DNA of 64,000 nt. It comes from Clostridia bacterium. Its GTDB lineage: Bacteria > Bacillota > Clostridia > Oscillospirales > SIG627. Positions within the stretch are counted from its first letter, which is position 1, and each line of letters starts with the position of its first letter. The notes below the pieces were generated by a model. The model was not told the DNA's origin. It ran no database searches and worked only from the letters and a program-made list of their open reading frames with translations. The DNA lies in assembly GCA_017517325.1 (NCBI GenBank), contig JAFWZW010000004.1:1-64000 (forward strand), read 5' to 3'. The position numbers and the translations under genes are program-made. Of the stretch, positions 2,235 to 28,984 are shown in pieces.

Positions 2235-2450
2235 GGTTATGAGACCGACGAGCGGAGCTCGTTGGGGCACGTGCCGTCCCGCCCCGAAGGGGATGAAGGG
2301 ACGGTGCGGGCTCCGTAGCGGTCGAAAAAGGCAAGGATCAGCACCGAAAGGTGCCCGCCGTCCTTTTTCGGGAACCGCAAGGCGGTTTTCGGGACTTGTC
2401 CCGAAAAATAACCCGGAGGTCGTGTGGTTCAAGTCCCACCCCCGCAACCA
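2235..2450 (+). ncRNA. Structured tRNA-fMet-linked element, copy A
   Basis: This 216-nt unit has no plausible reading frame but is almost wholly foldable. Hairpins in order: CCGACGAGC/GCTCGTTGG (2245-2265); CCGTCCC/GGGACGG (2274-2304) enclosing CCCC-GAA-GGGG; CGAAAAAGG/CCTTTTTCG (2323-2370) enclosing GCACC-GAAA-GGTGC; AACCGC-AAG-GCGGTT; TTCGGGA-CTTG-TCCCGAA. It ends with the exact 43-nt 3' half of tRNA-fMet (2408-2450). Its first 19 nt match the reverse complement of the tRNA-fMet D/anticodon region with one mismatch. A second copy at 28765 preserves the pairings through different bases. Terminators lie on both sides. I cannot name the family; it may be an RNA or a structured mobile DNA. Confidence 0.6.
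2408..2450 (+). repeat. tRNA-fMet 3' half, second copy
   Basis: The 43 nt are identical to 2121-2163 of tRNA-fMet, from inside the anticodon through CCA. The following sequence differs (CGTAAAAAAG rather than AAAAAAAT). The 5' half of the tRNA is absent, so this copy cannot form a tRNA. Confidence 0.95.
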
Positions 2451-2454
2451 CGTA

Positions 2455-2484
2455 AAAAAGACACCCCAATCGGGTGTCTTTTTT
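2455..2484 (+). terminator. Terminator after element copy A
   Basis: AGACACCC and GGGTGTCT pair around CAATC and are followed by TTTTTT. Confidence 0.8.
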
Positions 2485-2639
2485 CGTGCTCTAAAAATTC
2501 CCCGAATCCCGCTCCAGCTCTGGCACCATGCCACTTAAGGAGCATCCAAAATGAATCAAATCAATGAAGGACTTTTCGCACCTGCGGAAAGCCCTTTCTT
2601 TTTTTCACAAACTTCACAAAACCGACCCTATTGGCATAC

Positions 2640-2660
2640 TTTTGACCCCATTTTGACCCC
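2640..2660 (+). repeat. Left subterminal repeat of the island
   Basis: Two tandem TTTTGACCCC decamers, 11 nt apart, are repeated in the same orientation at 27153-27173, close to the other end of the island. Possible integrase arm-binding sites. The rest of 2485-2790 has no gene I can support; a short minus-strand frame there ends in basic residues and could be a decayed integrase tail. Confidence 0.6.
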
Positions 2661-2772
2661 CACCGCCTGTCAAAAACCACCTCCCATTTTTGTGCAAGGA
2701 ATACAAAAAGCGCTTTAATTGGAGGAAAAAACTCTCTCATCATTCTGCTTTGTCACATTTTACCCCTTTATA

Positions 2773-2801
2773 TAGATTTTTGTAAAATCGTGTGATATAA
2801 T
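2773..2801 (+). promoter_or_regulatory. Extended -10 promoter of the hsd operon
   Basis: TGATATAAT at 2793-2801 is a perfect extended -10. The -35 (TAGATT, 17 nt upstream) is weak. It precedes hsdM by 40 nt. Confidence 0.6.
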
Positions 2802-2841
2802 ACATTTCGTATAGGTGTAAATATCATATTGAGGTGAAAAT

Positions 2842-4578
2842 ATGACTGACATACAACTCAAAAAACTAAAAGATGATCTGTGGCATTCTGCGGATATGCT
2901 TCGCGCGAGTGCGCACCTTGCCGCGAATAAATACGGTCAGCCCATTCTGGGCTTGATCTTCCTTCGTTATGCCGATATTCTGTTCAAGCAGCATAAGGCT
3001 GAGATTGCGGAGGAATATCAGCGCAAGATCGGCACCCGTGCCGAAAAGACCATGAAGCAAGTCTCCATTGAAAAGTGCGGCTTCTATCTGCCGGAGTGCG
3101 CCTACTTTGACTTTATCAATAACGCACCCGATGATGCGGAGAAAGCAACCCTCATAAAGAAGGCAATGGAGGAAATCGAAAAGGAGAACCCCAGTATGGC
3201 CGGTGTTCTTCCCAAAGAGGTTTACGGTCAGCTTGTGCCCGAAGAAGAGCCGGAACTGCTTTCTAAGATTATCCGCGTTTTCAAGGATATTCCCGAAGAT
3301 ATCAGCATTGACCTGTTCGGCGAGATCTACGAATACTTCCTTGGCAACTTTGCCTTGCAGGAAGGTAAGGACGGCGGAACATTCTATACCCCCGCAACCG
3401 TTGTTCGCTATATGGTCGAGGTGTTGAAGCCCGAGATCGGCAACAAGTTGTTCCTTGACCCGGCTTGTGGTTCCGGAGGTATGTTTGTTCAGGCAGCCCG
3501 CTATATGCACAGACACAATGCCACTGCCGAAGATATGATGAAGTTCATGTGCTATGGTGTTGAAAAGGAACCTGACACCGTGAAGCTTGCAAAGATGAAC
3601 CTGCTGCTTAACAATGTGCGCGGTGATGTGCGTGAGGCAAACTCTTTCTATGCGGATCCTCACAATGCAGTTGGCAGATTTGACTACGTCATGGCAAACC
3701 CGCCTTTTAACGTGGACGAGGTTGTTTACGACAAGGTTAAAGACGATCCTCGTTTCAATGAATACGGCATTCCCAAGAACAAGTCCAAGACGGCGAAAAA
3801 GGATTCCGACAAGAAAGAAACCGTACCCAACGCCAACTATCTTTGGATCTCTTATTTTGCCACTGCTCTGAACGAAAAAGGCAGAGCCGGTCTTGTTATG
3901 GCGAACTCCGCATCCGATGCGGGTAACAGCGAATATGACATCCGCAAGAAGATGATCGAAGCAGGCATCATCAAGCAGATGGTGACCCTGCCTTCCAATA
4001 TGTTCTCTTCTGTGACACTCCCTGCGACTTTGTGGTTCTTTGATAATGCCAAGAAGAATACCGATAAGAAAGACGAGATCCTCTTTGTAGATGCACGCAA
4101 TGTCTTTACCCAGGTTGACCGCGCCCACAGAAAATTCAGCGAAGAGCAGATCAAAAACCTTGCCATTATTACCCGCCTTTACGAAGGTGATACCGCCGCT
4201 TTCACTGAACTGGTTGCTGAATACAAGGCAAAACTTGCCAATGCGCCCGAAACATCCGACGATAAGGATGTTATGCCTAAGAGTTATTGGCAAGCCAATA
4301 TTGACTGGCTGCTGGAACGTTTCCCGGATGGCGTTTACCGCGATGTGGTCGGTCTGTGTAAGGCCGCCAAGCTGGACGGCGAGGATGGAATCATAGACCA
4401 GGACTACTCTCTCAATCCCGGTCGCTACGTTGGCGTTGTTATCGAAGATGACGGAATGACTGCAGAGGAGTTCAAAGCAGAAATGCTCTCGCTTAATACT
4501 GAGCTTGCAAAACTAAACGACGAAGCACACAGGTTAGAGGCAAAGATTACAGATAATTTGAAGGGTTTATTTGAATGA
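2842..4578 (+). CDS. hsdM: Type I restriction-modification methyltransferase subunit
   Basis: HsdM is the adenine-N6 methyltransferase subunit of a type I system and works in an M2S or R2M2S complex. The 578-residue protein has the helical HsdM N-terminal domain (about 10-130). The SAM-binding motif I is FLDPACGSGGMF (about 203-214) and the catalytic motif IV is ANPPF (about 283-287), the NPPF form of N6-adenine enzymes. The C-terminal helices (SLNTELAKLNDEAHRLEAKI) are the usual coiled coil that contacts HsdS. AGGTGA precedes the ATG. It is the first gene of a five-gene operon, and its stop overlaps the next start (ATGA). Codon use differs from the flanking chromosome (GAT-GTN pairs are common), in line with transfer. 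Confidence 0.96.
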   Translation: MTDIQLKKLKDDLWHSADMLRASAHLAANKYGQPILGLIFLRYADILFKQHKAEIAEEYQRKIGTRAEKTMKQVSIEKCGFYLPECAYFDFINNAPDDAEKATLIKKAMEEIEKENPSMAGVLPKEVYGQLVPEEEPELLSKIIRVFKDIPEDISIDLFGEIYEYFLGNFALQEGKDGGTFYTPATVVRYMVEVLKPEIGNKLFLDPACGSGGMFVQAARYMHRHNATAEDMMKFMCYGVEKEPDTVKLAKMNLLLNNVRGDVREANSFYADPHNAVGRFDYVMANPPFNVDEVVYDKVKDDPRFNEYGIPKNKSKTAKKDSDKKETVPNANYLWISYFATALNEKGRAGLVMANSASDAGNSEYDIRKKMIEAGIIKQMVTLPSNMFSSVTLPATLWFFDNAKKNTDKKDEILFVDARNVFTQVDRAHRKFSEEQIKNLAIITRLYEGDTAAFTELVAEYKAKLANAPETSDDKDVMPKSYWQANIDWLLERFPDGVYRDVVGLCKAAKLDGEDGIIDQDYSLNPGRYVGVVIEDDGMTAEEFKAEMLSLNTELAKLNDEAHRLEAKITDNLKGLFE

Positions 4579-5294
4579 CGTCAGAAGAACTTTTTGAATC
4601 GGTTGGATTTGTTAAAGAATACTATTCACAAATGGCTGATTTTTATAGGGGCAACTTTGAATCAGAAGAGGATATGATTGCGTTCTTTGTGAAGGTGTTC
4701 AAAAACGACGAGAACGATAAAACCCCTCGGCAAATGATGAATCAGGTTCAACATCTTGTTTCCATTGCAAACGATATGGACAAGATCCGCCCCAGTCGTG
4801 ACCCTCTAAGAATATTCTTTATCAAGACTTGCTTAGAGGCGCTATGTGCGTTATCTGGGATGAATAACAAAAAAGACAAGCTGGCTTTCTATGAAAAATT
4901 CATAGGTTATATGAGTGCTGAAGGAAAGACGTACATTCTTGATAACTTTTCACTAACTGGCTTTGATGATGTGTATATGGGCCATACATACGAAGCAAGT
5001 CATAATTTGACCATTGACGATTTCTTCGAGATAATTAAGGCTGTGCGGGATATTGTAGCTCATGAGGGCAATTATTGGGAAATGCAGTTCTTTGCACAAG
5101 ATGACTCTACTTGGCTTGCAACATTAGAAACCGATCGAAAGATTCTCAAACCTGATAAATATCAGTATCAGGATAAAATGATGCGCACTTACAGTTTCGA
5201 GACGACAATGCAATATGATCAGTTTGTACATTACTTTGTTGAGGCGTGCATTGCATATATTGTTGCCCACATTGACGGAAAGGAGGCAGGATAA
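4575..5294 (+). CDS. HEPN-like protein embedded in the hsd operon
   Basis: This 239-residue, mainly helical protein lies between hsdM and hsdS, overlapping both (ATGA with hsdM, one base with hsdS), so it is translationally coupled to them. I do not recognise a named family. Residues 158-163 read RDIVAH, an Rx4H motif, at the end of a helix and followed by EGNYW. Rx4-6H is the catalytic motif of HEPN ribonucleases, and the preceding segment (FFIKTCLEALCALSG) fits a HEPN helix. HEPN nucleases linked to type I restriction (PrrC, RloC) cut tRNA when restriction is inhibited, so a back-up toxin or sensor is a reasonable inference. It has no ATPase domain of its own. A structural accessory role is the main alternative. 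Confidence 0.55.
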   Translation: MTSEELFESVGFVKEYYSQMADFYRGNFESEEDMIAFFVKVFKNDENDKTPRQMMNQVQHLVSIANDMDKIRPSRDPLRIFFIKTCLEALCALSGMNNKKDKLAFYEKFIGYMSAEGKTYILDNFSLTGFDDVYMGHTYEASHNLTIDDFFEIIKAVRDIVAHEGNYWEMQFFAQDDSTWLATLETDRKILKPDKYQYQDKMMRTYSFETTMQYDQFVHYFVEACIAYIVAHIDGKEAG

Positions 5295-6481
5295 TGGGTG
5301 AATGGAAAGAAACAAGATTTTCGGAAATTGCAACCGTTATTATGGGACAATCGCCTGCATCAGAATTCTACAATAGTGATGGAAAAGGCTTTCCGTTTAT
5401 GCAGGGAAACAGAACTTTTGGAGACCGCTATCCTACAATCGATACTTACACTACTCAAATAACAAAAAAGGCTCCTCAAAACAGCATTTTGATGAGCGTA
5501 AGAGCTCCTGTTGGCGATATAAATATTGCTCCGTTGGAGATGTGCATTGGGCGAGGATTGTGCGCAATAAATGCAAAAGATGGCAACAACGAGTTTGTAA
5601 GATTCTTGTTGAGCTACAATATGCCAAAGTTAAAATTGTCCGAAAATGGCACAACCTTTACGGCGATTAATGGAGATAATATAAAGAACTTAAAGATATT
5701 AGTTCCCGATCTTCCAACCCAAAAGCGGATTGCTGATATTCTTTCTACCTATGACGATTTGATTGAGAATAATAATCGCAGAATTGTGCTTTTGGAAAAG
5801 GCAGCGCAAGAACTATACAAGGAGTGGTTTGTCCGCTTCCGTTTCCCCGGCTATGAAACCGCAAAGTTTGAAAATGGTCTACCCACAGGGTGGGAAATCA
5901 AAAAGATTGGCGATATCGCACGTATTAAATCAGGTTATGCCTTCAAAAGCGAATGGTGGTCAGACGAAGGTGTTCCCGTAATAAAGATCAAAGACATTCA
6001 AAATACTACGATTGATTTTAGCGATTTGTCAAGAGTTTCAGAAGCGCACGCTTTGTTAGCAAAACAGTTTTTTGTTACAGAAGGTGATTTGCTGATTGCA
6101 ATGACGGGAGCGACTATTGGTAAGTTGGCACTTGTTCCTTTTTCTAGCGAAAGACTTGTTGTGAATCAGCGTGTTGGAAAATTCTTTCTTGGTGACAACC
6201 CTGTTTCTACTGTTTCTTTTCTGTATTGCACATTACAGCAGAACTGGATACAAGAACTAATACTAATGATCGCCAGTAGCAACGCTGCACAACCCAACAT
6301 AAGTCCTTTCGACATTGAAAAAATAAAGATTATATATAACAAAGAGATGGTTGATGACTTCAACAAACAAGCATCAAATCTTATTGAGCAAATAATGCTT
6401 TTGCGAAAAAGAAATCAAAACCTATCAAAACAACGAGATTTACTCTTGCCTCGCCTTATCAGTGGTAAATTGGAGGTGTAA
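5294..6481 (+). CDS. hsdS: Type I restriction-modification specificity subunit
   Basis: HsdS selects the bipartite DNA target for modification and restriction. The 395 residues show two target-recognition domains: TRD1 (about 1-145, beginning WKETRFSEIATVIMGQSP) and TRD2 (about 200-345, beginning GWEIKKIGDIARIKSGYAF). A conserved helical spacer separates them (LPTQKRIADILSTYDDLIE, then NNNRRIVLLEKAAQELY), and a matching distal helix ends the protein (LLRKRNQNLSKQRDLLLP). The length is full for the family. The start ATG overlaps the stop of the HEPN-like gene by one base. The recognition sequence cannot be read from the protein. Confidence 0.95.
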   Translation: MGEWKETRFSEIATVIMGQSPASEFYNSDGKGFPFMQGNRTFGDRYPTIDTYTTQITKKAPQNSILMSVRAPVGDINIAPLEMCIGRGLCAINAKDGNNEFVRFLLSYNMPKLKLSENGTTFTAINGDNIKNLKILVPDLPTQKRIADILSTYDDLIENNNRRIVLLEKAAQELYKEWFVRFRFPGYETAKFENGLPTGWEIKKIGDIARIKSGYAFKSEWWSDEGVPVIKIKDIQNTTIDFSDLSRVSEAHALLAKQFFVTEGDLLIAMTGATIGKLALVPFSSERLVVNQRVGKFFLGDNPVSTVSFLYCTLQQNWIQELILMIASSNAAQPNISPFDIEKIKIIYNKEMVDDFNKQASNLIEQIMLLRKRNQNLSKQRDLLLPRLISGKLEV

Positions 6482-6483
6482 AA

Positions 6484-7302
6484 TTGGAAAGAAAAACTCT
6501 TGCCCAAGTTTTAAAAGATGCCAAAATCGATTATAAACGAGAATATAAGCGTTTGTATGAGATGTTTTATGAATCTGAAATAAATCAAGAAAAGAATGTT
6601 CTACGTGATGCTTGTGCTGCGAACTTTTGGAATATGCCCATACGAGGAACTTGCCTTTCGTTAGATGATTTCGATGATTACTATGAAATAAAATTCGAAA
6701 AGGAACCTGAAGGCTTTGATCTCAACTATCTTTTGAATTTTTGCGAATATACATATAATCTCGTAATCTATACAACATTTAGCACTTGGGGATATGGCTT
6801 TCAAACGCCAAGAGATGCTTTTATGATCCAATTAAACAGAGTGGCTGATTTAATCGGATATATGTTTTCAGCATCCGAAAATGGTGTGTTTATACTTGTT
6901 CCCAAAGATCAAACCGCAATTGCCGTGGCAGAAACATTAGATAGAAACTTATCTTACAGGGTTATAGAATACAACCATAATTCTATGAGAGGTAATCTTG
7001 ATAAGAAAAGAAATCTTTTAATTGTTTTGGCGGACAAGCTGGAGGCAAACAGAAAGATACTAAAACAAATCAATTCCAAGATGGAAGATCATTTGTATTT
7101 TCTGCTCAACAATCTAAACATACGACACAATAACACAGAACAAGGTTCAAAAGAATACAGAAAATATGTTGCTGATATGGATAAAGAAACTCTTGAAAAA
7201 TGGTACGATGAAACATATCAGATGTGTTTGCTTGCCTTTCTTGAATTAGATAACTTGGAGAGAAAAGAAAAAGTCGAACAATTAAAGCAAGCACTAAATT
7301 GA
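6484..7302 (+). CDS. Unknown protein of the hsd operon
   Basis: The function is not recognised. The 272-residue protein begins with a TTG codon; GGAGGTG, lying inside the end of hsdS, is 5 nt upstream and no better in-frame start exists. It is soluble and predicted mostly helical, with an acidic mid-region (DDFDDYYEIKFEKEPEG). The C-terminal helical segment is rich in Glu, Lys and Asn and contains LNIRHNN (about 211-217), resembling some HEPN-like helical domains but without the spaced Rx4-6H motif. It sits between hsdS and hsdR in one operon, so it probably modulates restriction or detects its failure. That is inference from position only. Confidence 0.8.
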   Translation: MERKTLAQVLKDAKIDYKREYKRLYEMFYESEINQEKNVLRDACAANFWNMPIRGTCLSLDDFDDYYEIKFEKEPEGFDLNYLLNFCEYTYNLVIYTTFSTWGYGFQTPRDAFMIQLNRVADLIGYMFSASENGVFILVPKDQTAIAVAETLDRNLSYRVIEYNHNSMRGNLDKKRNLLIVLADKLEANRKILKQINSKMEDHLYFLLNNLNIRHNNTEQGSKEYRKYVADMDKETLEKWYDETYQMCLLAFLELDNLERKEKVEQLKQALN

Positions 7303-7318
7303 TTTTAAGGAGAAAGAT

Positions 7319-10300
7319 ATGTCAAGATTTATATACGAAGATGACATAGAAAAAGCGTTACTCGACAAGTTAGCCGCCGAGCCGTTTTGCTATGACGTCA
7401 TCACTTGTGATCCTTCGACATCATCAAAAGAGAATATAAACGACGGCACGGGACGCTCTGCGAAAACAGAGTGCATTTTGCCGCGCGTTCTTGAGGAATC
7501 TCTCTGCCGTATCAACCCCGATATTCCTGTCGAAAAACTGACTTCCGTAATCAAAGACTTGACTGCCGATTTTTCCGACTCCGACCTTGTTTCCAAAAAC
7601 TATGAGCTTTACAGCAAGATCCGCAACTACATAAAGATCCCAGTTCTCAAAAACGGGAAAGAGGATTTTGCCTTCGTAAAGCTGATCGACTTTGACAATC
7701 CCAAAAACAACACCTTTACTGCTGTATCCCAAATGTGGATCAAGGGGCGCTATAACTGGCGCAGACCGGACATTATTGTCTTTGTAAACGGTTTGCCTCT
7801 TGTGTTCATCGAGCTCAAAAACGGCATCGTCAAGGTGGAGGAAGCCTACCGCAAGAATCTGAAAAGCTACATCAAGGACATTCCCAACCTCTTTGCGTTC
7901 AATCAGATTTGTGTGCTTTCCAACGGTTTTGAAACCCGTCTTGGTGCCTTCAATGCCACCTTCGACTATTTCTTTGAGTGGCTGAAACAAAAAGAGGGCG
8001 AGAGAATCGACCGCAAAGCAATCAGCGAAAGTGGCGTTTCTGCCGACTATTTCGTTGACGGCCTCATGCACAAGGAAACCCTGATCGACTATATTGAGAA
8101 CTTCATCTTGTTTGAAAACAAGTCTATCAAGATCATTGCGAAGAACCACCAGTTCCTGGGAGTCAATAATCTGATGGAGTCTGTGAAGAATCGCAAGGAG
8201 CTCAAGGGTAAGTTGGGCGTCTTTTGGCATACCCAGGGCTCCGGCAAGAGCTACTCCATGGTTATGTTTGCCAGGAAAGTGCGCCGCAAGGTAGAGGGCA
8301 ACTTTACCTTTTTGGTGATTACCGACCGTGAGGATCTGGACAATCAGATCTACAAGAATTTTATGCGTACTGAGGTCATCGGCAACAAGGAAGAGTGCCA
8401 ACCGAAAAACGGCACGCAGTTGCGTGAGTTCTTGCAGACGAACAAATCCTTTGTCTTTACGCTGATACATAAATTCCGTTACGATAAGACCAAGAAATAT
8501 CCTGTCCTTACCGAGCGTGACGATATTATCGTAATGGTGGACGAGGCTCACCGTACCCAGTATAAGGATTTGGCTGAGAACATGAGAACGGCATTGCCTA
8601 ATGCAAACTTTATTGCGTTTACGGGTACTCCTTTGCTGGGTTCAAAGCGCCTGACAAATCAGTGGTTTGGTGACTATGTATCGGAATACAACTTTGCACA
8701 GTCTGTAGAGGATGGCTCTACTGTGCCGTTGTTCTACTCTCGACGTGTTCCGGAAGTGGGTCTACAGAACGATTTCCTCGACGATGACGTGGTTGATATT
8801 ATTGAGGACGAAAATCTGAACGAAGCCGAAACCCGCTTGCTTGAAAACTCTTCCTCTCGAATCTTGGAAGTTATCAAGCGTGAGGATCGTCTGGACAAGA
8901 TCGCCCGTGATATCGCCCACCATTTCCCCCGCAGAGGCTTCCTTGGCAAGGGTATGGTGGTATCGGTAGATAAGTTTACCGCTGTCAAAATGTACGATAA
9001 AGTTCAGCACTATTGGGCAGAGGAAAAGAAGGCCTTGGTGGCAGAACGCAACACCGCTAAAACAAAGGAAGAACGCGATCGCATCACCGGTATTATCAAC
9101 TTTATGGATTCGGTGGAAATGGCTGTCATTATTTCCGAGGATGCTGACGAAGAAACCAAATTTACTGCTCAGGGCCTTAGTATTTCTGCACATCGCGCCA
9201 AGATGAACGAAATCAAAGACGGCAGAGATATCGAGGATAGATATAAAGACCCCGACGACCCGCTGAAGCTCGTCTTTGTATGCGCCATGTGGCTGACCGG
9301 CTTTGATGTGAAGAACCTTTCTACCCTGTATTTGGACAAGCCTATGAAAGGTCATACCCTGATGCAGGCGATTGCCCGCGCCAACCGTGTGTATCCCGGT
9401 AAGCCCTGCGGCATCATCGTTGACTACGTCAACGTGTTTAAGTATATGCAGAAGGCCCTCAGCCAGTATGCAACAGGAGATGACGGGCAGGAATTCCCTG
9501 CAAAGGATATCGATAGATTGCTTGAATTGATCGATCAGACGATTGCTGAAACCGACTTGTTCCTGAAGACCTTGTCGGTAGATTTGGATGCTATTATTGC
9601 AGGTGATGACACCTTCGATAAGATGGAAGAACTGCGCAAGGCATATAACATCATCGTGGCTAATGATGACGACAAGGAGAAATTCAAAGTTCTTTCCAAC
9701 ACCTTGATGAACCTTCATGATGCATCAAAGCCTGAAGTATTTGAACTTGGCTGGCATAATGAGAAGTTTGGGCCCATCGCCTATCTGCACGGTTTGCTTT
9801 ACAACCAAATTGATGACGAGAAGATCAAACGCGCACGGCTTAGAATGGGGCAAGTTCTGGATAATAGTATCATTTCTCAGAAAGCCGAAGATAACGATGA
9901 TGGCTACGTTATTCACGGAACAAAGGTTATCGACTTGTCCAAAATTGATGTTGATCAGCTGAAACGTGAAATTAAAGTTGCTCCCTATAAGGCGGTAGAG
10001 ATCGATGACCTTAAGGCGTTTATCGATGAAGCGTTGAAGCAGATGATGGACAAGAACTGTACTCGTGACAAATTCTCCGTTCGATTTAAGAACATCGTTG
10101 ATCGCTACAATGCCGGTGGCTCTGAAAACGAGGACTACTATGAGCAGTTGCTGCAGCTGATCGAAGACCTCAAAAAAGAATCGGAAAGACCGAATTTAAT
10201 GGGTCTCTCCGAGGAAGAACTTGAGATTTTTGATTTGCTTATAAAGGGCAAGAACTTAACCAAATCCGAGGAACAAAAGGTTATTCTTTCGGCTAAGAAT

Positions 10301-10525
10301 CTGTTCAAGAAACTGAACGAGAATAGAAGCAGCCTTTTCGTCGTGGATTGGTATCGAGGCGAGCAACCCAAGGCGAGAGTAAAGAACGCTATCATGGAAA
10401 CGCTTGATGCAGACCTCCCCGACAGCTACGACAAAGAAGTGTTTATTGTTAAAACAGAACTTTTGCTTAATCACTTCATCGATATGGCTGTTCAAGGCTA
10501 TGGCTGGGTTGGAAGCGTGGCATAG
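7319..10525 (+). CDS. hsdR: Type I restriction endonuclease subunit
   Basis: HsdR is the ATP-driven translocase and nuclease of the complex. Across 1,068 residues the N-terminal PD-(D/E)xK nuclease is visible as RRPDIIVFVNGLPLVFIELK (about 148-168). The SF2 motor follows: Walker A TQGSGKSYS (about 303-312), the DEAH box VDEAHRT (about 406), the motif III-like FTGTPL, and motif VI-type residues around LMQAIARANRVYPGK. The C-terminal third is the helical HsdM-contacting domain. AAGGAG lies before the ATG. It is last in the operon and followed by a strong terminator. With intact M, S and R genes the system appears functional. Confidence 0.96.
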   Translation: MSRFIYEDDIEKALLDKLAAEPFCYDVITCDPSTSSKENINDGTGRSAKTECILPRVLEESLCRINPDIPVEKLTSVIKDLTADFSDSDLVSKNYELYSKIRNYIKIPVLKNGKEDFAFVKLIDFDNPKNNTFTAVSQMWIKGRYNWRRPDIIVFVNGLPLVFIELKNGIVKVEEAYRKNLKSYIKDIPNLFAFNQICVLSNGFETRLGAFNATFDYFFEWLKQKEGERIDRKAISESGVSADYFVDGLMHKETLIDYIENFILFENKSIKIIAKNHQFLGVNNLMESVKNRKELKGKLGVFWHTQGSGKSYSMVMFARKVRRKVEGNFTFLVITDREDLDNQIYKNFMRTEVIGNKEECQPKNGTQLREFLQTNKSFVFTLIHKFRYDKTKKYPVLTERDDIIVMVDEAHRTQYKDLAENMRTALPNANFIAFTGTPLLGSKRLTNQWFGDYVSEYNFAQSVEDGSTVPLFYSRRVPEVGLQNDFLDDDVVDIIEDENLNEAETRLLENSSSRILEVIKREDRLDKIARDIAHHFPRRGFLGKGMVVSVDKFTAVKMYDKVQHYWAEEKKALVAERNTAKTKEERDRITGIINFMDSVEMAVIISEDADEETKFTAQGLSISAHRAKMNEIKDGRDIEDRYKDPDDPLKLVFVCAMWLTGFDVKNLSTLYLDKPMKGHTLMQAIARANRVYPGKPCGIIVDYVNVFKYMQKALSQYATGDDGQEFPAKDIDRLLELIDQTIAETDLFLKTLSVDLDAIIAGDDTFDKMEELRKAYNIIVANDDDKEKFKVLSNTLMNLHDASKPEVFELGWHNEKFGPIAYLHGLLYNQIDDEKIKRARLRMGQVLDNSIISQKAEDNDDGYVIHGTKVIDLSKIDVDQLKREIKVAPYKAVEIDDLKAFIDEALKQMMDKNCTRDKFSVRFKNIVDRYNAGGSENEDYYEQLLQLIEDLKKESERPNLMGLSEEELEIFDLLIKGKNLTKSEEQKVILSAKNLFKKLNENRSSLFVVDWYRGEQPKARVKNAIMETLDADLPDSYDKEVFIVKTELLLNHFIDMAVQGYGWVGSVA

Positions 10526-14399: not shown

Positions 14400-14654
14400 A
14401 TGGAAAAAAGTAAAAAAATCACGTTTCGCGTATCAAGCGAAGAATATAGAAAAATTCTCGAAAAAGCGGATGAAAAGTATCTTTCCACAAGTCGATATGT
14501 TGCACAGTGCGCTTTGGTGCCCGAAGGGTTAACCAAGGAAATAAAACAAAGAATATTTTGGTCTCTTTGCCAAATTAAGGAGTTGGCGAGCAACTGCACC
14601 AAGGAAGAAAAAATTAAAGAGGAATGTGACGCAATATGGCGGTTTTTGAGATAA
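14400..14654 (+). CDS. MobC-like ribbon-helix-helix mobilization protein
   Basis: This is a relaxosome accessory protein that would bind the transfer origin and help the relaxase load. The 84-residue sequence begins with a basic strand (KKITFRVSSEEYRKI) and continues with a helix-turn-helix pair ending STSRYVAQCAL, the pattern of plasmid MobC and ribbon-helix-helix proteins. The start is set by AAGGAGG 8 nt upstream. The last codons overlap the relaxase gene, indicating coupled translation. The C-terminal helix is rich in Lys and Glu. The family assignment is from pattern only. Confidence 0.75.
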   Translation: MEKSKKITFRVSSEEYRKILEKADEKYLSTSRYVAQCALVPEGLTKEIKQRIFWSLCQIKELASNCTKEEKIKEECDAIWRFLR

Positions 14655-15088
14655 TTTCCAATCCCGTGGACACACAAGAGTCCCTTCAGAATTTATGTCA
14701 ATACATCCTTGATCCGCTTCACGAAAAATCAGATGGAACTTTGATTGGCGGGCAGTATTTGACTCCCACTTCGTCATTTGAAGAAATGCGGGAAGCTCAA
14801 ACGCTTTTTGATAAAGATTCCGGCCGTTTGGCTTATCACTTTATTATTAGTTTTGATCCCGGAGATCCCTTGATGCCGGAGGATGCTTTCACGTTTGCTA
14901 TAGAATTTATTGATTTCTTTTTTAAGGAATATCAAGTGCTTTTTAACGTACATACCAAACAGAGTCACCTTCACGTGCATTTTGCACTAAATCCTGTTTC
15001 TCTGCGAACGGGCAAAAAATTGCACGTTGATTATGAGTTGATCGGACGGTATCGAGATTTCATTCAAAAAAACATTGAGCTTTATTAG
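14636..15088 (+). CDS. Very short MobA/VirD2-type relaxase
   Basis: Relaxases nick oriT and stay covalently attached to the transferred strand. This 150-residue protein contains the family core: AYHFIISFDPGDP (about 63-75) and the metal-binding His cluster QSHLHVHFALNPVS (about 111-124), followed by RTGKKLH. The Tyr expected near the N-terminus is best matched by QYILDP. Typical relaxases exceed 300 residues, so either this is a natural minimal form or the C-terminal part has been lost. The frame stops cleanly 37 nt before the convergent small ORF at 15126. It overlaps mobC by 19 nt and has no ribosome site at a good distance, so it probably depends on coupling. Confidence 0.75.
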   Translation: MAVFEIISNPVDTQESLQNLCQYILDPLHEKSDGTLIGGQYLTPTSSFEEMREAQTLFDKDSGRLAYHFIISFDPGDPLMPEDAFTFAIEFIDFFFKEYQVLFNVHTKQSHLHVHFALNPVSLRTGKKLHVDYELIGRYRDFIQKNIELY

Positions 15089-15125
15089 ACCGAGAGGGGG
15101 AACCTCTCCCCCTCTCTCGCTTCTT

Positions 15126-15233: not shown

Positions 15234-15248
15234 AGGATCACCTCCTTT

Positions 15249-15335: not shown

Positions 15336-15339
15336 ACCA

Positions 15340-18458: not shown

Positions 18459-19145
18459 TCACTTCTTTGTAAATCTTTTTTTCTGCATCGGCTTTAAGTA
18501 ATTCTTCTTCATATCTCGTAAAGAGCCGAAAAAAGCTTCTTCGGTTTTTGAAAGAATATGATGATCTCCTTTTAATGAGAGTAATTCCAACGTGCAAATT
18601 AAATCTGCTGATTGAAACAATCGGTAATTTGCCGGAATTACCTTGCGCATCTCAGTTTGCGGCAGCAGTACTGAAAAGACTGTAGCCAGTAATTTTCCGA
18701 GTTCAACTTGGCCATTGTCATAATAAAGAACGATTCTGTCATATGGGGAAAAGAACGAATAGTTTTCACGTATAAAAAGCGAAAGCTGTTTTGATAATGC
18801 AACGGTTAAGCCCAGGTTTTCAGAAAGATTTCGTTTTTCTACAGAAAAGGTAACATAAGAAACGTTGGTTTGCTTTGTAAAAGTTAAAATTTTGTTGAGG
18901 TACCGTCTTCTTTCCGCAATGGATAAATTTTGATAATCTTCTTCCCGTCTTATAATAGGACCGGCGTGAAAACAATGATTTGCGGGAGCGTTTAAATGAG
19001 ATAGCTCCCTTTCCAAATGTTCAATTTGTGTAGCAATTGAAGCATCTTGATCGTGAAAAACCAAAGTGAACAAATAAAACGGCGAATGGCTTTGAAACGG
19101 ACCAAAATCACCCGATTCATCCACAAAAATACTTAATTCTTTCAT
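18459..19145 (-). CDS. DUF3800 domain protein
   Basis: The family adopts an RNase H-like fold and is often found in mobile and defence loci; its reaction is not established. Three landmarks are visible in the 228 residues: the N-terminal IFVDESGDFG (about 6-15), the mid-protein VLYYDNGQ (about 141-148), and the C-terminal FQSADLICTLELL, which supply the conserved acidic residues expected of a metal-dependent nuclease. The start follows AGGA by 9 nt. A promoter and a terminator-bearing leader lie upstream. It is divergent from the reverse transcriptase gene. Nuclease activity is inferred from the fold only. Confidence 0.8.
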   Translation of the reverse strand: MKELSIFVDESGDFGPFQSHSPFYLFTLVFHDQDASIATQIEHLERELSHLNAPANHCFHAGPIIRREEDYQNLSIAERRRYLNKILTFTKQTNVSYVTFSVEKRNLSENLGLTVALSKQLSLFIRENYSFFSPYDRIVLYYDNGQVELGKLLATVFSVLLPQTEMRKVIPANYRLFQSADLICTLELLSLKGDHHILSKTEEAFFGSLRDMKKNYLKPMQKKRFTKK

Positions 19146-19159
19146 TTTCTACAATCCTG

Positions 19160-19236
19160 TTATATAAAAAGTGGCGGGGAACATCCCCGCCGTAGGTGGA
19201 CCCGGGTCATAAAGACCAGCCCGTTTTCCTGTAGGT
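19160..19236 (-). ncRNA. Candidate small RNA or attenuated leader
   Basis: On the minus strand a good promoter (19237-19265) starts a segment of about 70 nt containing GGTC-TTTAT-GACC. It ends at the hairpin GGCGGGG-ATGTT-CCCCGCC (19173-19191) followed by ACTTTTTATA, a textbook intrinsic terminator. The DUF3800 start codon is 27 nt beyond the hairpin base. The transcript is either a free small RNA or a leader that must be read through. Confidence 0.55.
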
Positions 19237-19596: not shown

Positions 19597-21312
19597 ATGT
19601 TTAAGGTTAAAAACTTATTAAGAAACGAGTATTTTCCAACAGAACTTCCTCCATGCTTCAACACTGATGACTTAGCAAATTTTGCTGAAGAAGTTATAAG
19701 ACTCGCGAACACTAATGAACAAAAATATTCAATTGCTTTGAAATATAGTGGTTATAAATCCGAATCCTCCAGGAGAACCTTTTCAATCCCCAATCCGTAT
19801 CATTATTGTAGAGCGGTAGATATAATAGTACAAAATGAAGAAGACCTTTTGAATGTTTTTAGAAAAAGTTTGTTTTCTTTAACTGCGCCGATTCCTCAGA
19901 ATCCGACAGACAGTCAAGCATATTCCAAAAGATCAAAAAACATTGCTGATACAAAATTCGAAATAGAAAAACTCTATCAAAATAGAAGATACGAAATAAG
20001 ATTAGACATTAGCACTTTTTTTGACAGTATTTATACTCATAGCATTCCGTGGGCTATTCATGGAAAAGAAACTGCAAAAAGGGAAAGAAGCAACGCTTCT
20101 TTGCTGGGGAATAAATTAGATAAAAGTATCAGAGCGATGAATTATGATCAAACTAACGGGATTTTAGTAGGAAACGCTGTTTCAAGAATTATTTCCGAAA
20201 TAATCCTTTGTACTGTTGATCATCAAATTAGGAAAAAGTTCAAAGATATTGACTGTTGCCGGTTTGTTGATGATTATTATATTTATCCTAATGATATTTC
20301 CCAAATTCAAGAAATTATTTCATTTATAAGAGTTTGTTTGTCACAATACGAATTAAACTTAAATGAAAACAAAATCCAAATCAATGAAAGTCCATTTTTG
20401 TATGGAAAACCTTGGATTGAGGAAGTGAAACAATATATCCATCTTCAGCCGGAAATATTTTTATCAAAATTAATTATGGAATATAACAAACATAAGGATC
20501 TTTCCATCATTAAATATGGCTTAAGGATTATTTCCCAGTGCGGTTATTCTCAAAAAGAGTGGCCAGCTATGCAATCAAGACTTATTAATCTTTGGGTTCG
20601 TTTTCCTTCTCTATCAGATCGCATATTGCCTACGCTATGGCAGAACAAAGATAAAATAGGAAAAACTGTACTAAAAAAAGCCATTTATACTATCATAGAT
20701 GAAACCATATTGTTAAACAGGGAACAAGAATTAGTATGGGCAATTTGGTATGCAAAGGTATTTAACGTTACATTATCAAAGGAATATATAATTAAGACAC
20801 TAAATTCTTCCAATGAACTTGCAATAATAATTATCCTTGATCTTATCTATAAATGGGGAAAGGAGACTGTAAGAGAAATAAAATCAAAATTGAACGTTTT
20901 GCGAACTTATTTAGTGGGAGAAGATACAGATGAAAGAGGGAATACAAACAAACTCTTATGGACTTCCCATTGGTTGTTGTCGTACGAAGCAACCAAAAAT
21001 GGTTGGCTTAATATTGACGGACATACCTTTGATTATGCTAACCATAATAGTTTTTTTAGCGAATTGATAGGAAAAGATATAAAGTTTTATGATTTGGAAT
21101 TTAGTTACGAGGAAAAAAGAGCAGAAGGAAATAAGTTTGAGTTTGCAACTCGTTCTGAACTTTATAGGGCATTAACGAAATTGAAAAAAGCTCTTGAAAA
21201 TGAGAGGTCTTCAGTGAGGGCTGAAGAATTGCTAACTGAAGAAGAAAAAGAAAACCTATATTTTGAATTCTTAGAAGCGTTACATAGAGAAGAGAGAGGA
21301 TACGTTGGTTAA
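19597..21312 (+). CDS. Abi/UG-type reverse transcriptase, probable phage defence
   Basis: This is a non-retron, non-intron reverse transcriptase of the group that includes AbiA, AbiK, AbiP2 and the DRT systems. In 571 residues, motif A is RLDISTFFDSIYTHSIPWAI (Asp137), followed by HGKETAK, a hallmark of this group. GILVGNAVSRIISEIIL (188-204) precedes the catalytic FVDDYYIY (Asp225, Asp226). From about 270 to 480 there is a helical-repeat region (HEAT-like), as in AbiK-type proteins, then a charged C-terminal domain. No maturase or endonuclease domain is present. AGAGG sits 7 nt before the ATG; an ATG 5 nt upstream leads to a stop after three codons. I cannot assign a DRT subtype. It is monocistronic and ended by a strong terminator. 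Confidence 0.85.
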   Translation: MFKVKNLLRNEYFPTELPPCFNTDDLANFAEEVIRLANTNEQKYSIALKYSGYKSESSRRTFSIPNPYHYCRAVDIIVQNEEDLLNVFRKSLFSLTAPIPQNPTDSQAYSKRSKNIADTKFEIEKLYQNRRYEIRLDISTFFDSIYTHSIPWAIHGKETAKRERSNASLLGNKLDKSIRAMNYDQTNGILVGNAVSRIISEIILCTVDHQIRKKFKDIDCCRFVDDYYIYPNDISQIQEIISFIRVCLSQYELNLNENKIQINESPFLYGKPWIEEVKQYIHLQPEIFLSKLIMEYNKHKDLSIIKYGLRIISQCGYSQKEWPAMQSRLINLWVRFPSLSDRILPTLWQNKDKIGKTVLKKAIYTIIDETILLNREQELVWAIWYAKVFNVTLSKEYIIKTLNSSNELAIIIILDLIYKWGKETVREIKSKLNVLRTYLVGEDTDERGNTNKLLWTSHWLLSYEATKNGWLNIDGHTFDYANHNSFFSELIGKDIKFYDLEFSYEEKRAEGNKFEFATRSELYRALTKLKKALENERSSVRAEELLTEEEKENLYFEFLEALHREERGYVG

Positions 21313-24294: not shown

Positions 24295-25788
24295 ATGAAC
24301 AGCATCAGAATAAAAAATATTCGTTCCATCAAAGATAGTGATACCATTGAATTAAGGCCTATTACAGTGGCCATTGGTAAGAACAGTTGTGGAAAAAGCA
24401 CATTTATAAGAACGCTTCCTTTGCTAAAACAAACCATTGAAAAAGATGTTGCAGAATCTTTGCTATGGTATGGAGATTATGTGGATTTTGGAAATTACTC
24501 TACAATAAAACCTTATTTTCACAGCGAAGAAAATCCTTGTATAGAATTAACAACAAAAACTTTTTTATCAACAAATTATTTTTCTTCAAGCCAAGAAGTA
24601 GATGTGCATTTAAAAATGGTTCTTTCTGAAAAATACATAAAACAGTTTTCAATCCATTATTATGACCAAGAAGTAATTGTCAGTTTAAAAGAAAACCAAA
24701 AAATAGAGAGCATTGTAATTAATGGTCAGCACATGAGACTTTCAACAAATGACTACATTTGGCTTAGAAATAGCAAGGAGCTTATTCCTGTTATCGCACC
24801 ACAAAAAAACATAGAAAGAGCATTTTGGTTTTTTGCTCCTAGATTTGAAGAAGGTGTTGATAATATTGTCACCCAATTTAGAAATATTTGTAGCTCCAAA
24901 GCAAAAGAGGATACCATAAAATCATTTGCCAACCAATTAGTCTGTTTTACCTCAAAAAGCAATTTGAGAGAAAAATTAATCTCAACGCAGAAATTTCCAA
25001 CAGTGGCAAAGTTTTTTAAAAACTGCGATACCAAAGATCTTTGCTTTTTGTCAATAAATAATAATATGGTATTAGCTTTACTACCATCTCTAATTGGGTT
25101 TATTAATGGCACTCTGAAGGAAGAGGGTAATTCCATGCATTACCTAAAGCCTATTAGAGCGAATGCCAATAGATATTATAGAATTCAAGGGATTAGTACA
25201 AAGGAACTGGATTCCGATGGCAGCAACTTGCCAATGATTCTATATAATATGGATGCAACGCAACGTTTTGAATTTGAACAATGGACACAGGAGAAATTTG
25301 GTATTGAATTTTCTGTTTCAACTGATTCCGGTCATATTTCTTTGGTGGCAAAAAGTAATGGTGTATCAATCAATTTAGCAGACACTGGATATGGCTATTC
25401 ACAAATCCTTCCGGTCATTTTGCAATTGTTTCTTTTAACTAAAAATAATATTCAAAATAACCGCGGATCTTCTTTTATATTTATAATTGAGCAACCCGAA
25501 CTACATCTGCATCCAGCATTTCAAGCAAAAATAATTGATGCATTTGCCGGTATAGTTTCAACAGCAAAAGAAAGTGGCATAGACATTAAAATCATTTTTG
25601 AAACACATAGCGAAACCATGGTTAACCGCTTGGGATATTTAATATACAAAAACAGATTGCAAAAAGAATTGGTTAATGTGTTAATCTTCGATAAAGAAGA
25701 TGGAATTACGAATGTTAAGTCCAGAAGCTTTAATGAAAAGGGCTTAATTGATGGATGGCCAACAGGGTTCTTTTCTGTTGAGGATTGA
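24295..25788 (+). CDS. ABC/AAA-type ATPase of a two-gene defence-like system
   Basis: This is an ATPase of the RecF/OLD/AAA_15 type. In 497 residues the Walker A is GKNSCGKST (28-36). An ABC-like signature region follows (DTGYGYSQILPVI). Walker B is IFIIEQPELHLHPAFQ (about 398-412), and the switch His lies in FETHSETMVNRLG. The insert containing YLKPIRANANRYYRIQG (about 280-296) is typical of the defence-linked branch that includes PARIS AriA. It has no nuclease domain, which the next gene appears to supply. AGGGAG lies upstream of the ATG. It sits near the island's right end, alone with its partner and a small gene. Assignment to PARIS itself is not certain. Confidence 0.8.
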   Translation: MNSIRIKNIRSIKDSDTIELRPITVAIGKNSCGKSTFIRTLPLLKQTIEKDVAESLLWYGDYVDFGNYSTIKPYFHSEENPCIELTTKTFLSTNYFSSSQEVDVHLKMVLSEKYIKQFSIHYYDQEVIVSLKENQKIESIVINGQHMRLSTNDYIWLRNSKELIPVIAPQKNIERAFWFFAPRFEEGVDNIVTQFRNICSSKAKEDTIKSFANQLVCFTSKSNLREKLISTQKFPTVAKFFKNCDTKDLCFLSINNNMVLALLPSLIGFINGTLKEEGNSMHYLKPIRANANRYYRIQGISTKELDSDGSNLPMILYNMDATQRFEFEQWTQEKFGIEFSVSTDSGHISLVAKSNGVSINLADTGYGYSQILPVILQLFLLTKNNIQNNRGSSFIFIIEQPELHLHPAFQAKIIDAFAGIVSTAKESGIDIKIIFETHSETMVNRLGYLIYKNRLQKELVNVLIFDKEDGITNVKSRSFNEKGLIDGWPTGFFSVED

Positions 25789-25793
25789 GTGGT

Positions 25794-26906
25794 ATGTGGA
25801 TTGAATTAAGAGATGATTTAATAGATGCATTCGATACCAATACTAAATCGACCGATAGAATTGCGAGAAGTATTAATGCTTTGTTTACATCCATGTATGA
25901 TCAATACCACATAGTATATGCTAATCAAGATTTATTAGAAAAGTTGCGTTCGATGCCTTTTGTTCATCAAGATAACCAAGTATTAATTACATGGATTTTA
26001 AACAAATATATTAGTGTTTATGAATGTCACGATGCCGTAAAGAAAAAAATAATAGTTGTTCCCGATGGTGTTCAAGAAACAAATACAAATAATATTTATT
26101 ATATAGCCATTTCAGAACTCCAAAAGATAAGACAGTCAATGCTTCTCACCGAGAATAAAACTGACTATGATTTATTCAATCTCATCTTTTCTTTTCTAAA
26201 ACCTTTTGGAAAAAACTATGTAATATCATTAGAAAATAATCCCTTCTATGGTGGAAACGTTTCAGCTTCGGTTCAAATTGTTGAAAGCAGCAGTAGATTT
26301 GCTTTGTGTATAGTGGACAGTGATAAGGATTATGAAACTTCTTGCCAAGGGAACACTTGCAATTCAGCTGTACGATCTATTGACCGAGCAAAAGAACATA
26401 ACTGTGTTATCGATTTGCATATTCTTGGGGTTAGAGAAAAAGAAAACCTTATTCCTTTGATCTTTTATTCCACTACAAGTTCAGAAAAAGAAGTATTCTA
26501 TAATTGTGTGCGAAAGTTCGAAGAAAACGTTGGATTTATGAAGTTTGTTGATTATAAAGGCATAAAACAGAAAAAAATCAATTCTGCAAACACAGAATGG
26601 AGTTCACTTTATATGCCTTTTGTAGAAGAGTGCAAAAAGAGTGGTATTTTTTTAGAACAAGAGGATGAAAAAGAACTTTGCGTAAAAGGTATAAATGATC
26701 ATCAACTTGAGATGGCAACACAGGCTTACTTTGAAGATAGTTATGTTCAATTAACCAAAAAGCAAAAAGATGATGTTTTGATGATAAAAACAGACATAAA
26801 ATTACACATACCACGCTATATAATGGAAGAGTGGAATAGCATTAGTGCGGAAATGTTTGATTATGGATGTTCTTTATCAGACCAATTTATGCGCACTCTT
26901 GTATAA
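25794..26906 (+). CDS. TOPRIM/DUF4435-like partner of the ATPase
   Basis: This 370-residue protein follows the ATPase stop by 5 nt. I choose ATG 25794 because GAGG lies about 10 nt upstream; a TTG at 25785 would have no spacing from that site. The central region resembles a TOPRIM or DUF4435 nuclease: YVISLENNPFYGG (about 142-154), then RFALCIVDSDKDYE (about 168-181) with the DxD pair, and later LGVREKENLIPL. Known ATPase-TOPRIM pairs (PARIS AriA/AriB, Gabija-like, OLD) release or activate the nuclease when a phage trigger is sensed. The N-terminal 130 residues match nothing I recognise. The catalytic motif is weaker than in true OLD proteins. Confidence 0.65.
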   Translation: MWIELRDDLIDAFDTNTKSTDRIARSINALFTSMYDQYHIVYANQDLLEKLRSMPFVHQDNQVLITWILNKYISVYECHDAVKKKIIVVPDGVQETNTNNIYYIAISELQKIRQSMLLTENKTDYDLFNLIFSFLKPFGKNYVISLENNPFYGGNVSASVQIVESSSRFALCIVDSDKDYETSCQGNTCNSAVRSIDRAKEHNCVIDLHILGVREKENLIPLIFYSTTSSEKEVFYNCVRKFEENVGFMKFVDYKGIKQKKINSANTEWSSLYMPFVEECKKSGIFLEQEDEKELCVKGINDHQLEMATQAYFEDSYVQLTKKQKDDVLMIKTDIKLHIPRYIMEEWNSISAEMFDYGCSLSDQFMRTLV

Positions 26907-27297: not shown

Positions 27298-27350
27298 CTC
27301 ATAACCCGGAGGTCGTGTGGTTCAAGTCCCACCCCCGCAACCAAAAAAAT
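27298..27350 (+). repeat. Right 53-nt direct repeat (attachment-like)
   Basis: Identical to 2118-2170, containing the tRNA-fMet 3' half (27301-27343) plus AAAAAAAT. The sequence before it (ATATCGGGAGGCCGCC) is unrelated to the tRNA, so it is a fragment left by integration rather than a gene. Confidence 0.88.
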
Positions 27351-27379
27351 TCCTCGGAGTATTCCGAGGATATTTTTTT
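27351..27379 (+). terminator. Terminator after the right repeat
   Basis: TCCTCGGA-GTA-TTCCGAGGA is followed by TATTTTTTT. A near-identical hairpin follows the tRNA half at 28942. Confidence 0.8.
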
Positions 27380-27480: not shown

Positions 27481-27491
27481 TGTCTGATGTA

Positions 27492-27520: not shown

Positions 27521-27531
27521 GTTATATAAAA

Positions 27532-27560
27532 TTGAAAAGTAATAGGTGTTATGATATAAT
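27532..27560 (+). promoter_or_regulatory. Promoter of the PHP gene
   Basis: TTGAAA, a 17-nt spacer and TATAAT, 32 nt before the ATG. Confidence 0.7.
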
Positions 27561-27592
27561 TGATATAGCAAAGTGAAAGGTGATAAGCAACA

Positions 27593-28432: not shown

Positions 28433-28469
28433 GCTTTCACCACGGCATCTATTTTCTCAAGATAACACA

Positions 28470-28508
28470 AAAACCTTCTCGGACGAAGTTCGGGAAGGTT
28501 TTACTTTT
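28470..28508 (+). terminator. Terminator of the PHP gene
   Basis: AAACCTTC and GAAGGTTT pair around an internally paired loop and are followed by TACTTTTTT. Confidence 0.8.
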
Positions 28509-28590
28509 TTCACTGTTCACTCTTCACTTTTCACTAAATCCGTGCGAGAAGATATTTGGAGGTAATAGGTAATAGTGAATAGTGAAGAAG
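28507..28590. repeat. TTCACT-type inverted repeat, copy 2
   Basis: Same arms and core as the copy at 27381 (core AAATCCGTGCGAGAAG, then ATATTTGGAGG). Confidence 0.65.
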
Positions 28591-28596
28591 TTGTTT

Positions 28597-28618
28597 TGCA
28601 AGGTTTACCTTGCTTTTT
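28597..28618 (+). terminator. Small terminator hairpin
   Basis: GCAAGG-TTTA-CCTTGC followed by TTTTTT. Confidence 0.7.
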
Positions 28619-28638
28619 TAAGTTATACAAGATATAAT
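28610..28638 (+). promoter_or_regulatory. Orphan promoter upstream of element copy B
   Basis: TTGCTT, a 17-nt spacer and TATAAT, with no reading frame downstream. Confidence 0.5.
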
Positions 28639-28644
28639 AGGTTA

Positions 28645-28733
28645 TCAAGTTTTTTCACCCCAAAGAGTATGATATCTTTTTCGGTGCAACTTGCCAAAAA
28701 GAAAAGTCGCACAAGGTGCGGCTTTTCTTTTTG
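28645..28733 (+). ncRNA. Candidate small RNA
   Basis: The segment between the orphan promoter and the terminator AAAAGTCGCAC-AAG-GTGCGGCTTTT (plus CTTTTT, 28700-28733) is about 90 nt and noncoding. It ends about 30 nt before element copy B. Evidence is limited to the promoter and terminator. Confidence 0.4.
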
Positions 28734-28764
28734 CTTATGGTGTGATCTGTACCCTGCGATTTTT

Positions 28765-28984
28765 GGCTATGAGACCGACGAGCGTGGCTCGTTGGGGCAG
28801 AAGCACCGCCGCCGCAGAGCGGATGAAGGCGGTGTTTCGGCTCCGCAGCGGTCGAAAAAGGCAAGGAACAGCACCGAAAGGTGCCCGCCGCCTTTTTTCG
28901 GGTAACCGCAAGGTGGTTTTCCAAGGCTTTGCCTTGGAAAAATAACCCGGAGGTCGTGTGGTAGGGGTTCCACCCCCGCAACCA
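28765..28984 (+). ncRNA. Structured tRNA-fMet-linked element, copy B
   Basis: This is a homologue of 2235-2450. The same hairpins occur in the same order, but paired bases differ together: CACCGCC/GGCGGTG replaces CCGTCCC/GGGACGG; CCGC-AGA-GCGG replaces CCCC-GAA-GGGG; TTCCAAGGC-TTT-GCCTTGGAA replaces TTCGGGA-CTTG-TCCCGAA. CGAAAAAGG/CC(T)TTTTTCG and GCACC-GAAA-GGTGC are kept. It ends in a tRNA-fMet 3' half whose T-loop has changed (28942-28984). The anti-tRNA segment at its 5' end has two mismatches. Paired changes argue for selection on folding. Confidence 0.6.
28942..28984 (+). repeat. tRNA-fMet 3' half, diverged copy
   Basis: 43 nt match the tRNA except in the T-arm, where TTCAAGTCCC has become TAGGGGTTCC. 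CCA is kept. Confidence 0.85.

Follow-up and report, generated by a model that had tools for sequence, protein, structure and literature searches.

Integron attC sites are recombined as folded single strands, their structure matters, and they carry R boxes of the form GTTRRRY/RYYYAAC. Rickettsia palindromic elements are palindromic repeats that lie within genes, and double-hairpin elements were reportedly described in mitochondria by Paquin et al. in 2000. Furthermore, the cited accounts of the REP/REPIN-RAYT system describe dispersed, non-autonomous palindromic DNA which is often intergenic and for which mobilisation in trans has been proposed (PMC8266576, PMC3733652). Here we analyse a window (the whole stretch of DNA under study) of 64,000 nt from Clostridia bacterium assembly GCA_017517325.1, contig JAFWZW010000004.1, positions 1-64,000 of the forward strand. 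It contains a structured element twice: copy 1 (2235-2450) is placed after the terminator of a tRNA-fMet gene and copy 2 (28765-28984) lies 26.5 kb away. Both copies are probably members of a short, non-autonomous mobile DNA family of gut Clostridia, the core of which consists of two adjacent hairpins (~119 nt).

Both copies are built in one order. They open with the tRNA-fMet anticodon arm in inverted orientation and then its 5′ strand in sense orientation, two parts that the initial annotation had not noted; hairpins 1 and 2 and a variable hairpin come next, and the tRNA-fMet 3′ half and a terminator-like hairpin close the series. Their identity is 82% across a 220-base query (BLAST), with 33/51 positions identical in hairpin 1 and 58/62 in hairpin 2. 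The initial annotation had described two structured copies with a common hairpin order, each closing with a tRNA-fMet 3′ half and a terminator, and with stems that differ in sequence while pairing is kept. This description stands: CCGTCCC/GGGACGG faces CACCGCC/GGCGGTG, CCCC-GAA-GGGG faces CCGC-AGA-GCGG, and the right-hand hairpin (2386-2407 versus 28917-28941) has changed in the same manner. The predicted folds of 2220-2480 (copy 1, -125 kcal/mol, z -6.0) and of 28755-29022 (copy 2, -128 kcal/mol, z -7.5) were each equalled by none of 200 shuffles. The minus strand of copy 1 likewise folds well (z -4.6), as expected of a palindromic DNA. When single sequences are folded, copy 2 agrees with the family consensus; in copy 1 a local hairpin, AACCGC/GCGGTT, takes the place of the closing stem of hairpin 2, and the inverted arm finds its pairing partner upstream.

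Relatives in other genomes were found by BLAST, and a covariance model of 119 positions (R1) was built from an alignment of 61 copies. R1 recovers both window copies (E 1e-17 and 2e-15; bit scores in Table 1), with copy 1 and part of copy 2 being among its 61 training rows. At least one match is present in 51 of 147 related genomes, including the genome studied here, which holds five copies. Of 299 genomes drawn throughout the phylum, three gave a match: the present one, a second from the same order and a third (G352) from a different class, in which ten weak, divergent copies were detected. Scored candidates were at most 24 per genome for the 147 relatives and 12 for the draw, under strict filters, and these family counts are therefore lower bounds. 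An exact hairpin-2 pattern is matched by at least 120 public genome stretches (among the 80 matches listed, all are Clostridia-type assemblies) and also by two viral contigs. A hairpin-1 pattern gave 39 matches in 14 of 20 genomes, and its reversed form none; compared by hand, all 39 fall inside R1 matches, one of them (G085:C115) being interrupted by a contig end. By eye, three of the divergent G352 copies (L218, L220, L222) sit within CCCCTCC/GGAGGGG; internal-loop motifs are seemingly kept there and the stems are different.

In genome G085, nine of the ten copies examined are near-identical, agreeing at 112-118 of 118 positions with one another's reference; the exceptions among the nine are one copy with two bases missing (113 of 118) and one incomplete copy (78 of 79). 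The sequence CTCCCTC precedes eight of the nine. Six of the ten copies lie within 75 bp of a contig end, which is the behaviour of repeats that break assemblies. Dispersed near-identical copies without a gene of their own were found together with empty landing sites (see below), as for a double-hairpin element or a miniature inverted-repeat transposable element (MITE).

The pairing of the core is maintained well beyond the two copies of the window. Among 112 copies, 96.7% of the paired cells hold standard pairs (80.8% in shuffles), two-sided changes occur in 20 of 25 pairs and covariation scores 0.363, whereas slid partners reach no more than 0.052. Fitting the alignments to R1 biases them towards the structure of the model; in the 112-copy set, part of hairpin 2 is also fixed by the exact search pattern. 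These concerns are limited by the slid controls and by alignment A3 (66 matches, 61 distinct), whose rows were drawn from R1, BLAST and hairpin-1 pattern matches rather than from the exact hairpin-2 pattern: 94.4% standard pairs versus 73.5%, and a covariation of 0.478 versus at most 0.092 for slid partners. On trees of 106 and 59 copies, pair-keeping two-sided changes number 157 and 117, compared with 12-20 and 10-16 for slid partners. In terms of mutual information (112-copy alignment), the helix pairs rank highest, and a junction pair, 53-115, is added.

The initial annotation had read the paired substitutions as selection on folding. Selection, or another process that keeps pairing, is borne out. 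Covariation in further homologues exceeds the slid controls, on trees as well, and the sequence did not prove to be a decayed known gene or intron; the keeper, however, may be a process at the DNA level. In a helix selected as RNA, G·U is tolerated and A·C is not. In alignment A2 we counted 36 G·T and 23 A·C combinations, which does not differ from 1:1 (p 0.12), and in alignment A3 14 and 11. The signal recognition particle (SRP) RNA in 29 sequences of related genomes gave 131 and 3. Counted as single-step tree events, the ratios are 20:13 and 11:11 for the element and 28:2 for SRP RNA. Covariation with G·U intermediates clearly exceeding A·C, the signature of a structured RNA, was not found. 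Because G·T scarcely exceeds A·C, unlike in SRP RNA, the stems seem to be kept as exact palindromes, pointing to DNA rather than RNA.

These counts bear directly on the view that the core is a functional structured RNA, i.e. a mobile or tRNA-operon-borne non-coding RNA or a ribozyme, with covariation reflecting RNA folding. The covariation itself, GNRA-type loops in hairpin 2, a non-canonical covarying pair (73-92, G·A with A·C, from mutual information) and the sense-strand placement at tRNA genes would all suit such a molecule. Beside the near-equality of G·T and A·C, the scarcity of one-sided steps on the two trees (21 and 11, compared with 157 and 117 two-sided; 34 versus 85 in SRP RNA) argues against it. 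In addition, away from tRNA genes the core is oriented evenly to the main coding direction of the locus (28 with, 31 against). At the gathering cut-off, Rfam (cmscan, the window and nine loci) returned only tRNA, 5S ribosomal RNA and DUF3800-XI, none on the core, and a loose cut-off around copy 1 gave only sub-threshold matches; a known non-coding RNA was rejected as the identity of the cores tested. We regard a functional RNA as unlikely. It is possible, too, that arm-copying or gene conversion renews the hairpins of an RNA. Where the initial annotation had left the choice between an undescribed RNA and a structured mobile DNA, mobile DNA is now the better alternative and RNA is disfavoured.

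The surroundings of the core reveal a strong association with tRNA genes. Intact tRNA genes are 24-fold denser within 300 bp of a core (0.876/kb) than at 300-3000 bp (0.037/kb), and 46 of the 123 cores in pattern loci have one within 300 bp. Near tRNAs lie on the strand of the core in 58 cases and on the opposite strand in two; for far tRNAs the numbers are 8 and 8. Two layouts recur. In the upstream layout, pre-tRNA sequence and the 5′ part of the tRNA precede the core, which is followed by the same sequence again with the intact tRNA; the left repeat ends at -53 or -54 in 12 of the 63 loci with flank repeats or inverted repeats (130 examined). In the downstream layout, to which the window copies belong, the order is intact tRNA, terminator, inverted arm, core and 3′ half. 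Both layouts flank a single tRNA-Pro in L066. The other three copies of the present genome are at most 85 bp from an intact tRNA: one upstream of tRNA-Ser(CGA), and one on either side of tRNA-Trp, which is thereby flanked by both layouts. At the latter locus (L272), a tRNA-Met is located 33 bp ahead of the core upstream of tRNA-Trp (1091-1167 and 945-1058).

The initial annotation had described the element as fused to a tRNA-fMet half. This fusion does not belong to the element: other copies carry pieces of tRNAs for Pro, Leu, Ser, Trp or Thr, or no tRNA piece at all. The half is target flank. In L032 (G089:C74), a tRNA-fMet shell of inverted arm and 3′ half surrounds, by eye, a different hairpin-rich insert, as if the contents of the shell were exchangeable.

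At loci other than tRNA genes, the core interrupts a REP-like hairpin repeat; nine filled and eleven empty copies of this repeat were seen with a search pattern able to detect one orientation only. The landing repeat reads GCTCCCC...GGGGA-GCTGTC (the last dash marking the junction) and no clear target duplication is visible. Filled and empty states are both present in L133, with near-identical right flanks. The insertion site at the repeat is GGGGA-GCTGTC, and the motif varies at tRNA sites (GGG, GGTAG). The landing repeat is itself a second dispersed repeat, GCTCCCC...GGGGAGCTGTC-hairpin-GACTGAGGGG (L084, L103, L133 and others). Furthermore, a viral contig (L179) has a core inside an open reading frame, and so do the homologous frames in two assemblies (L086, L092), with codons being added in frame.

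These contexts largely refute the notion of an intron-like or attachment-site relic of tRNA-fMet, left by integrative islands and not an element in its own right. In favour of such a relic are the junctions in the anticodon loop, the island between the two copies and the extra tRNA 3′ halves; the same core nevertheless sits in non-tRNA contexts. Moreover, among 132 core occurrences with enough flank (some being one copy counted in two loci), removal of the core yields a bona fide joined tRNA in L097 only, where the D arm of a tRNA-Thr(CGT) is interrupted and both halves are present (1-450). L066 and L143 score through an adjacent intact gene, and L061, L118, L127 and L161 are stray calls. A tRNA intron was rejected on this ground, and we find the relic explanation scarcely credible.

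One candidate scheme for the mobility of the core is a derivative of the IS200/IS605 or REP/RAYT type: a Y1 HUH transposase would act on single-stranded hairpins and so move a fused left and right end. Two imperfect hairpins, a G-rich motif at the left junction, the lack of a clear target duplication and the conservation of shape over sequence would fit. However, Y1_Tnp is not enriched: it was detected in 44 of the 147 genomes, 15 of which are shared with the 51 genomes of the element, where 15.3 are expected (these and the following overlaps were counted by hand). It was undetected in G000, G001 and G085, incomplete genomes (G000 is 81% complete) with 5, 8 and 10 R1 matches. Lagging-strand entry as in IS200/IS605 is also unsupported, given that no strand bias exists outside tRNA genes, and no larger element with a gene lying between its hairpins was noticed, although no dedicated search was made. 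This derivation appears quite unlikely.

Spread by reverse transcription of a tRNA-operon transcript, in the manner of a bacterial short interspersed element, would explain the sense-strand bias at tRNA genes and the duplicated segments that contain tRNA parts and the sequence just upstream of the tRNA. Against this, RVT_1 is present in 41 of 147 genomes and shares 17 with the element (14.2 expected), it was found in none of six other members of the genus searched, all with R1 matches, and neither insertions in non-tRNA repeats nor DNA-like pairing agree with such a route, which we judge very unlikely. IS110 (21 of 147 genomes, 2 shared, 7.3 expected) fares no better. All three, Y1, reverse transcriptase and IS110, were rejected as movers for want of co-occurrence with the element.

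The reading that we prefer is a non-autonomous mobile twin-hairpin DNA. Its core would travel in folded form, as a DNA strand or cruciform whose shape and not its sequence is recognised, with the enzyme presumably supplied in trans. It would enter directly 3′ of a G-rich motif 3-5 nt long. Insertions at tRNA genes would survive only if an intact tRNA is left, and the surviving core would consequently be fused to a duplicated tRNA part: the 5′ part if it lies upstream and the 3′ half if it lies downstream, as in the window. Both arms of a stem would change together, probably because replication recopies one arm from its partner or because recognition requires exact palindromes. A more far-reaching proposal, which we consider possible but doubtful, is a new transposition system. 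A protein-less DNA would be recognised by its two-hairpin shape and delivered into hairpin-forming targets (tRNA genes and REP-like repeats) by an enzyme of no known transposase class. Its stems would be self-renewing, each arm serving as the template of its partner, and the system would make tRNA halves in tandem arrays.

Several observations weigh against a mobile palindromic DNA. No mobilising enzyme was found among the families tested (Y1_Tnp, RVT_1, IS110), no protein family recurs next to the core in a consistent position and no autonomous version was found. Where no tRNA gene is near, the cores have no preferred strand relative to the local GC skew (31:28). Each empty site is a further copy of the landing repeat and not the same locus in a sister strain. 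The tRNAs of the same loci, with rough stem registers, give a G·T:A·C ratio of 81:22, a smaller contrast (p 0.04) than that offered by SRP RNA. The hairpins are separable, as one of the 39 hairpin-1 matches (G024:C14) lacks hairpin 2; the statement that hairpin 1 never occurs without hairpin 2 was dropped for this reason. In L031 and L034, a full copy is followed by a truncated second one. Lastly, the GNRA-type loops and the pair 73-92 are RNA-like.

The features of the two copies and of their close surroundings are listed in Table 1.

Table 1. Coordinates of the tRNA genes, the two element copies and related fragments in the window
Feature	Positions	Strand	Basis or remark
tRNA-Leu(TAA), intact	1993-2079		ARAGORN
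tRNA-fMet (CAT), intact, target gene of copy 1	2086..2162	+	ARAGORN; Rfam RF00005
Copy 1: anticodon arm of tRNA-fMet, reverse-complement	2235..2253	+	21/24 aligned positions over 2230-2253
Copy 1: anticodon-arm 5′ strand, sense copy (GCTCGTTGGGG)	2257..2267	+	can pair with the preceding inverted arm
Copy 1: core element	2263..2386	+	end-to-end match to covariance model R1, 81.7 bits
Copy 1: hairpin 1, variable stem, ATGAA bulge	2264..2314	+	
Copy 1: hairpin 2 (GCGGTCGAAAAA ... TTTTTCGGGAACCGC), as in family model	2318..2378	+	
Copy 1: right-hand hairpin, variable, ahead of tRNA half	2386..2407	+	
Copy 1: tRNA-fMet 3′ half, target flank, 43 nt	2408..2450	+	letter-for-letter identical to 2121-2163
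Copy 1: hairpin with T run, terminator-like	2454..2484	+	
Extra tRNA-fMet 3′ half (CTCATAACCCGG...CCA), BLAST match at 27301-27343	27298..27343	+	
Copy 2: anticodon arm of tRNA-fMet, reverse-complement	28765..28783	+	17/19 positions
Copy 2: anticodon-arm 5′ strand, sense copy; predicted hairpin with inverted arm	28787..28797	+	
Copy 2: core element	28793..28917	+	end-to-end match to R1, 72.5 bits
Copy 2: hairpin 1	28794..28844	+	
Copy 2: hairpin 2	28848..28909	+	
Copy 2: right-hand hairpin, variable	28917..28941	+	
Copy 2: tRNA-fMet 3′ half, target flank, 43 nt	28942..28984	+	88% identity to tRNA half
Copy 2: terminator-like hairpin	28985..29019	+	resembles that at 27344-27379
Third copy, partial: piece of right-hand hairpin and degenerate tRNA-fMet 3′ half	29122..29178	+	96% over query 158-212

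An island with defence and mobility genes spans the interval between the copies. Type I restriction-modification genes (HsdM, HsdS, HsdR; 2842-10525) directly follow copy 1. Short genes for a relaxase (150 aa) and a resolvase (187 aa) at 14636-16222 suggest a mobilisable island; no integrase was detected among the 20 reading frames scanned with Pfam. A DUF3800 gene (18459-19223, minus strand), with the Rfam DUF3800-XI RNA (RF02975) just upstream, adjoins a 571-aa reverse transcriptase (19597-21312) situated in the defence genes, whose best match is to the DRT6/DRT4 anti-phage families (E 9e-121). Next, at 24295-26906, an AAA_15 ATPase resembling NsnB/AriA-type defence proteins is followed by a 373-aa protein which had no Pfam or PADLOC match. 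The additional tRNA-fMet 3′ half beyond these genes may be the right-hand attachment scar of this island.

A family of this kind would extend the mobile elements of an order of gut Clostridia by a widespread one and show how bacterial tRNA genes recurrently become split and duplicated. Base-pair covariation is the usual proof of a functional RNA; here it seems to stem from DNA palindromes, and such families could mislead automated searches for new RNAs. The enzyme that moves the twin-hairpin DNA would be a concrete target.

The family is apparently undescribed. No published description was recognised in the literature searched, with subscription journals and preprints outside the search, and neither one family core against a phage collection nor window copy 2 against a plasmid collection gave a match. 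An automated screen for structured RNAs in the human microbiome, of whose 3161 candidates 250 are called palindromic in the account cited, could have caught such repeats; the family was not compared with its candidate tables (PMC8040213).

How does the element relate to the systems introduced above? As the cited accounts describe them, REPs measure 20-40 bp and bear GTAG/CGTC tags, whereas the family core, not screened for tags, has ~119 nt and two different hairpins; unlike REP/RAYT, it shows no co-occurrence with Y1/RAYT and a strong association with tRNA genes (PMC8266576, PMC3733652). Rickettsia palindromic elements belong to a different phylum and are set apart by description, not by sequence. 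With respect to integron attC sites, no cassettes or integrase were seen with the family by eye, no search for attC boxes having been made. An archaeal mobile element that disrupts a tRNA gene likewise leaves a tRNA fragment beside the gene, but it is described as a 1.8 kb, recombinase-coding element in contrast to the non-coding core of 119 nt (PMC3293823). Wherever a decisive test of membership in one of the named bacterial families could be made, the element fell outside that family; the site choice of IS200/IS605 derivatives (a fixed short motif and no target duplication) stands apart, as no clear duplication goes together here with a motif that varies. Yeast GC-rich mobile clusters (PMC4478555) and the RHEs of sponges (PMC2800124) are, in the accounts cited, one or two tandem hairpins, palindromic, dispersed, protein-less and of unproved mechanism, as is the family; these are organellar and not known to be homologous, while the family is bacterial, larger and concentrated at tRNA genes. 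By analogy, the twin-hairpin family may work like REP/MITE-type palindromic repeats and mitochondrial double-hairpin elements.

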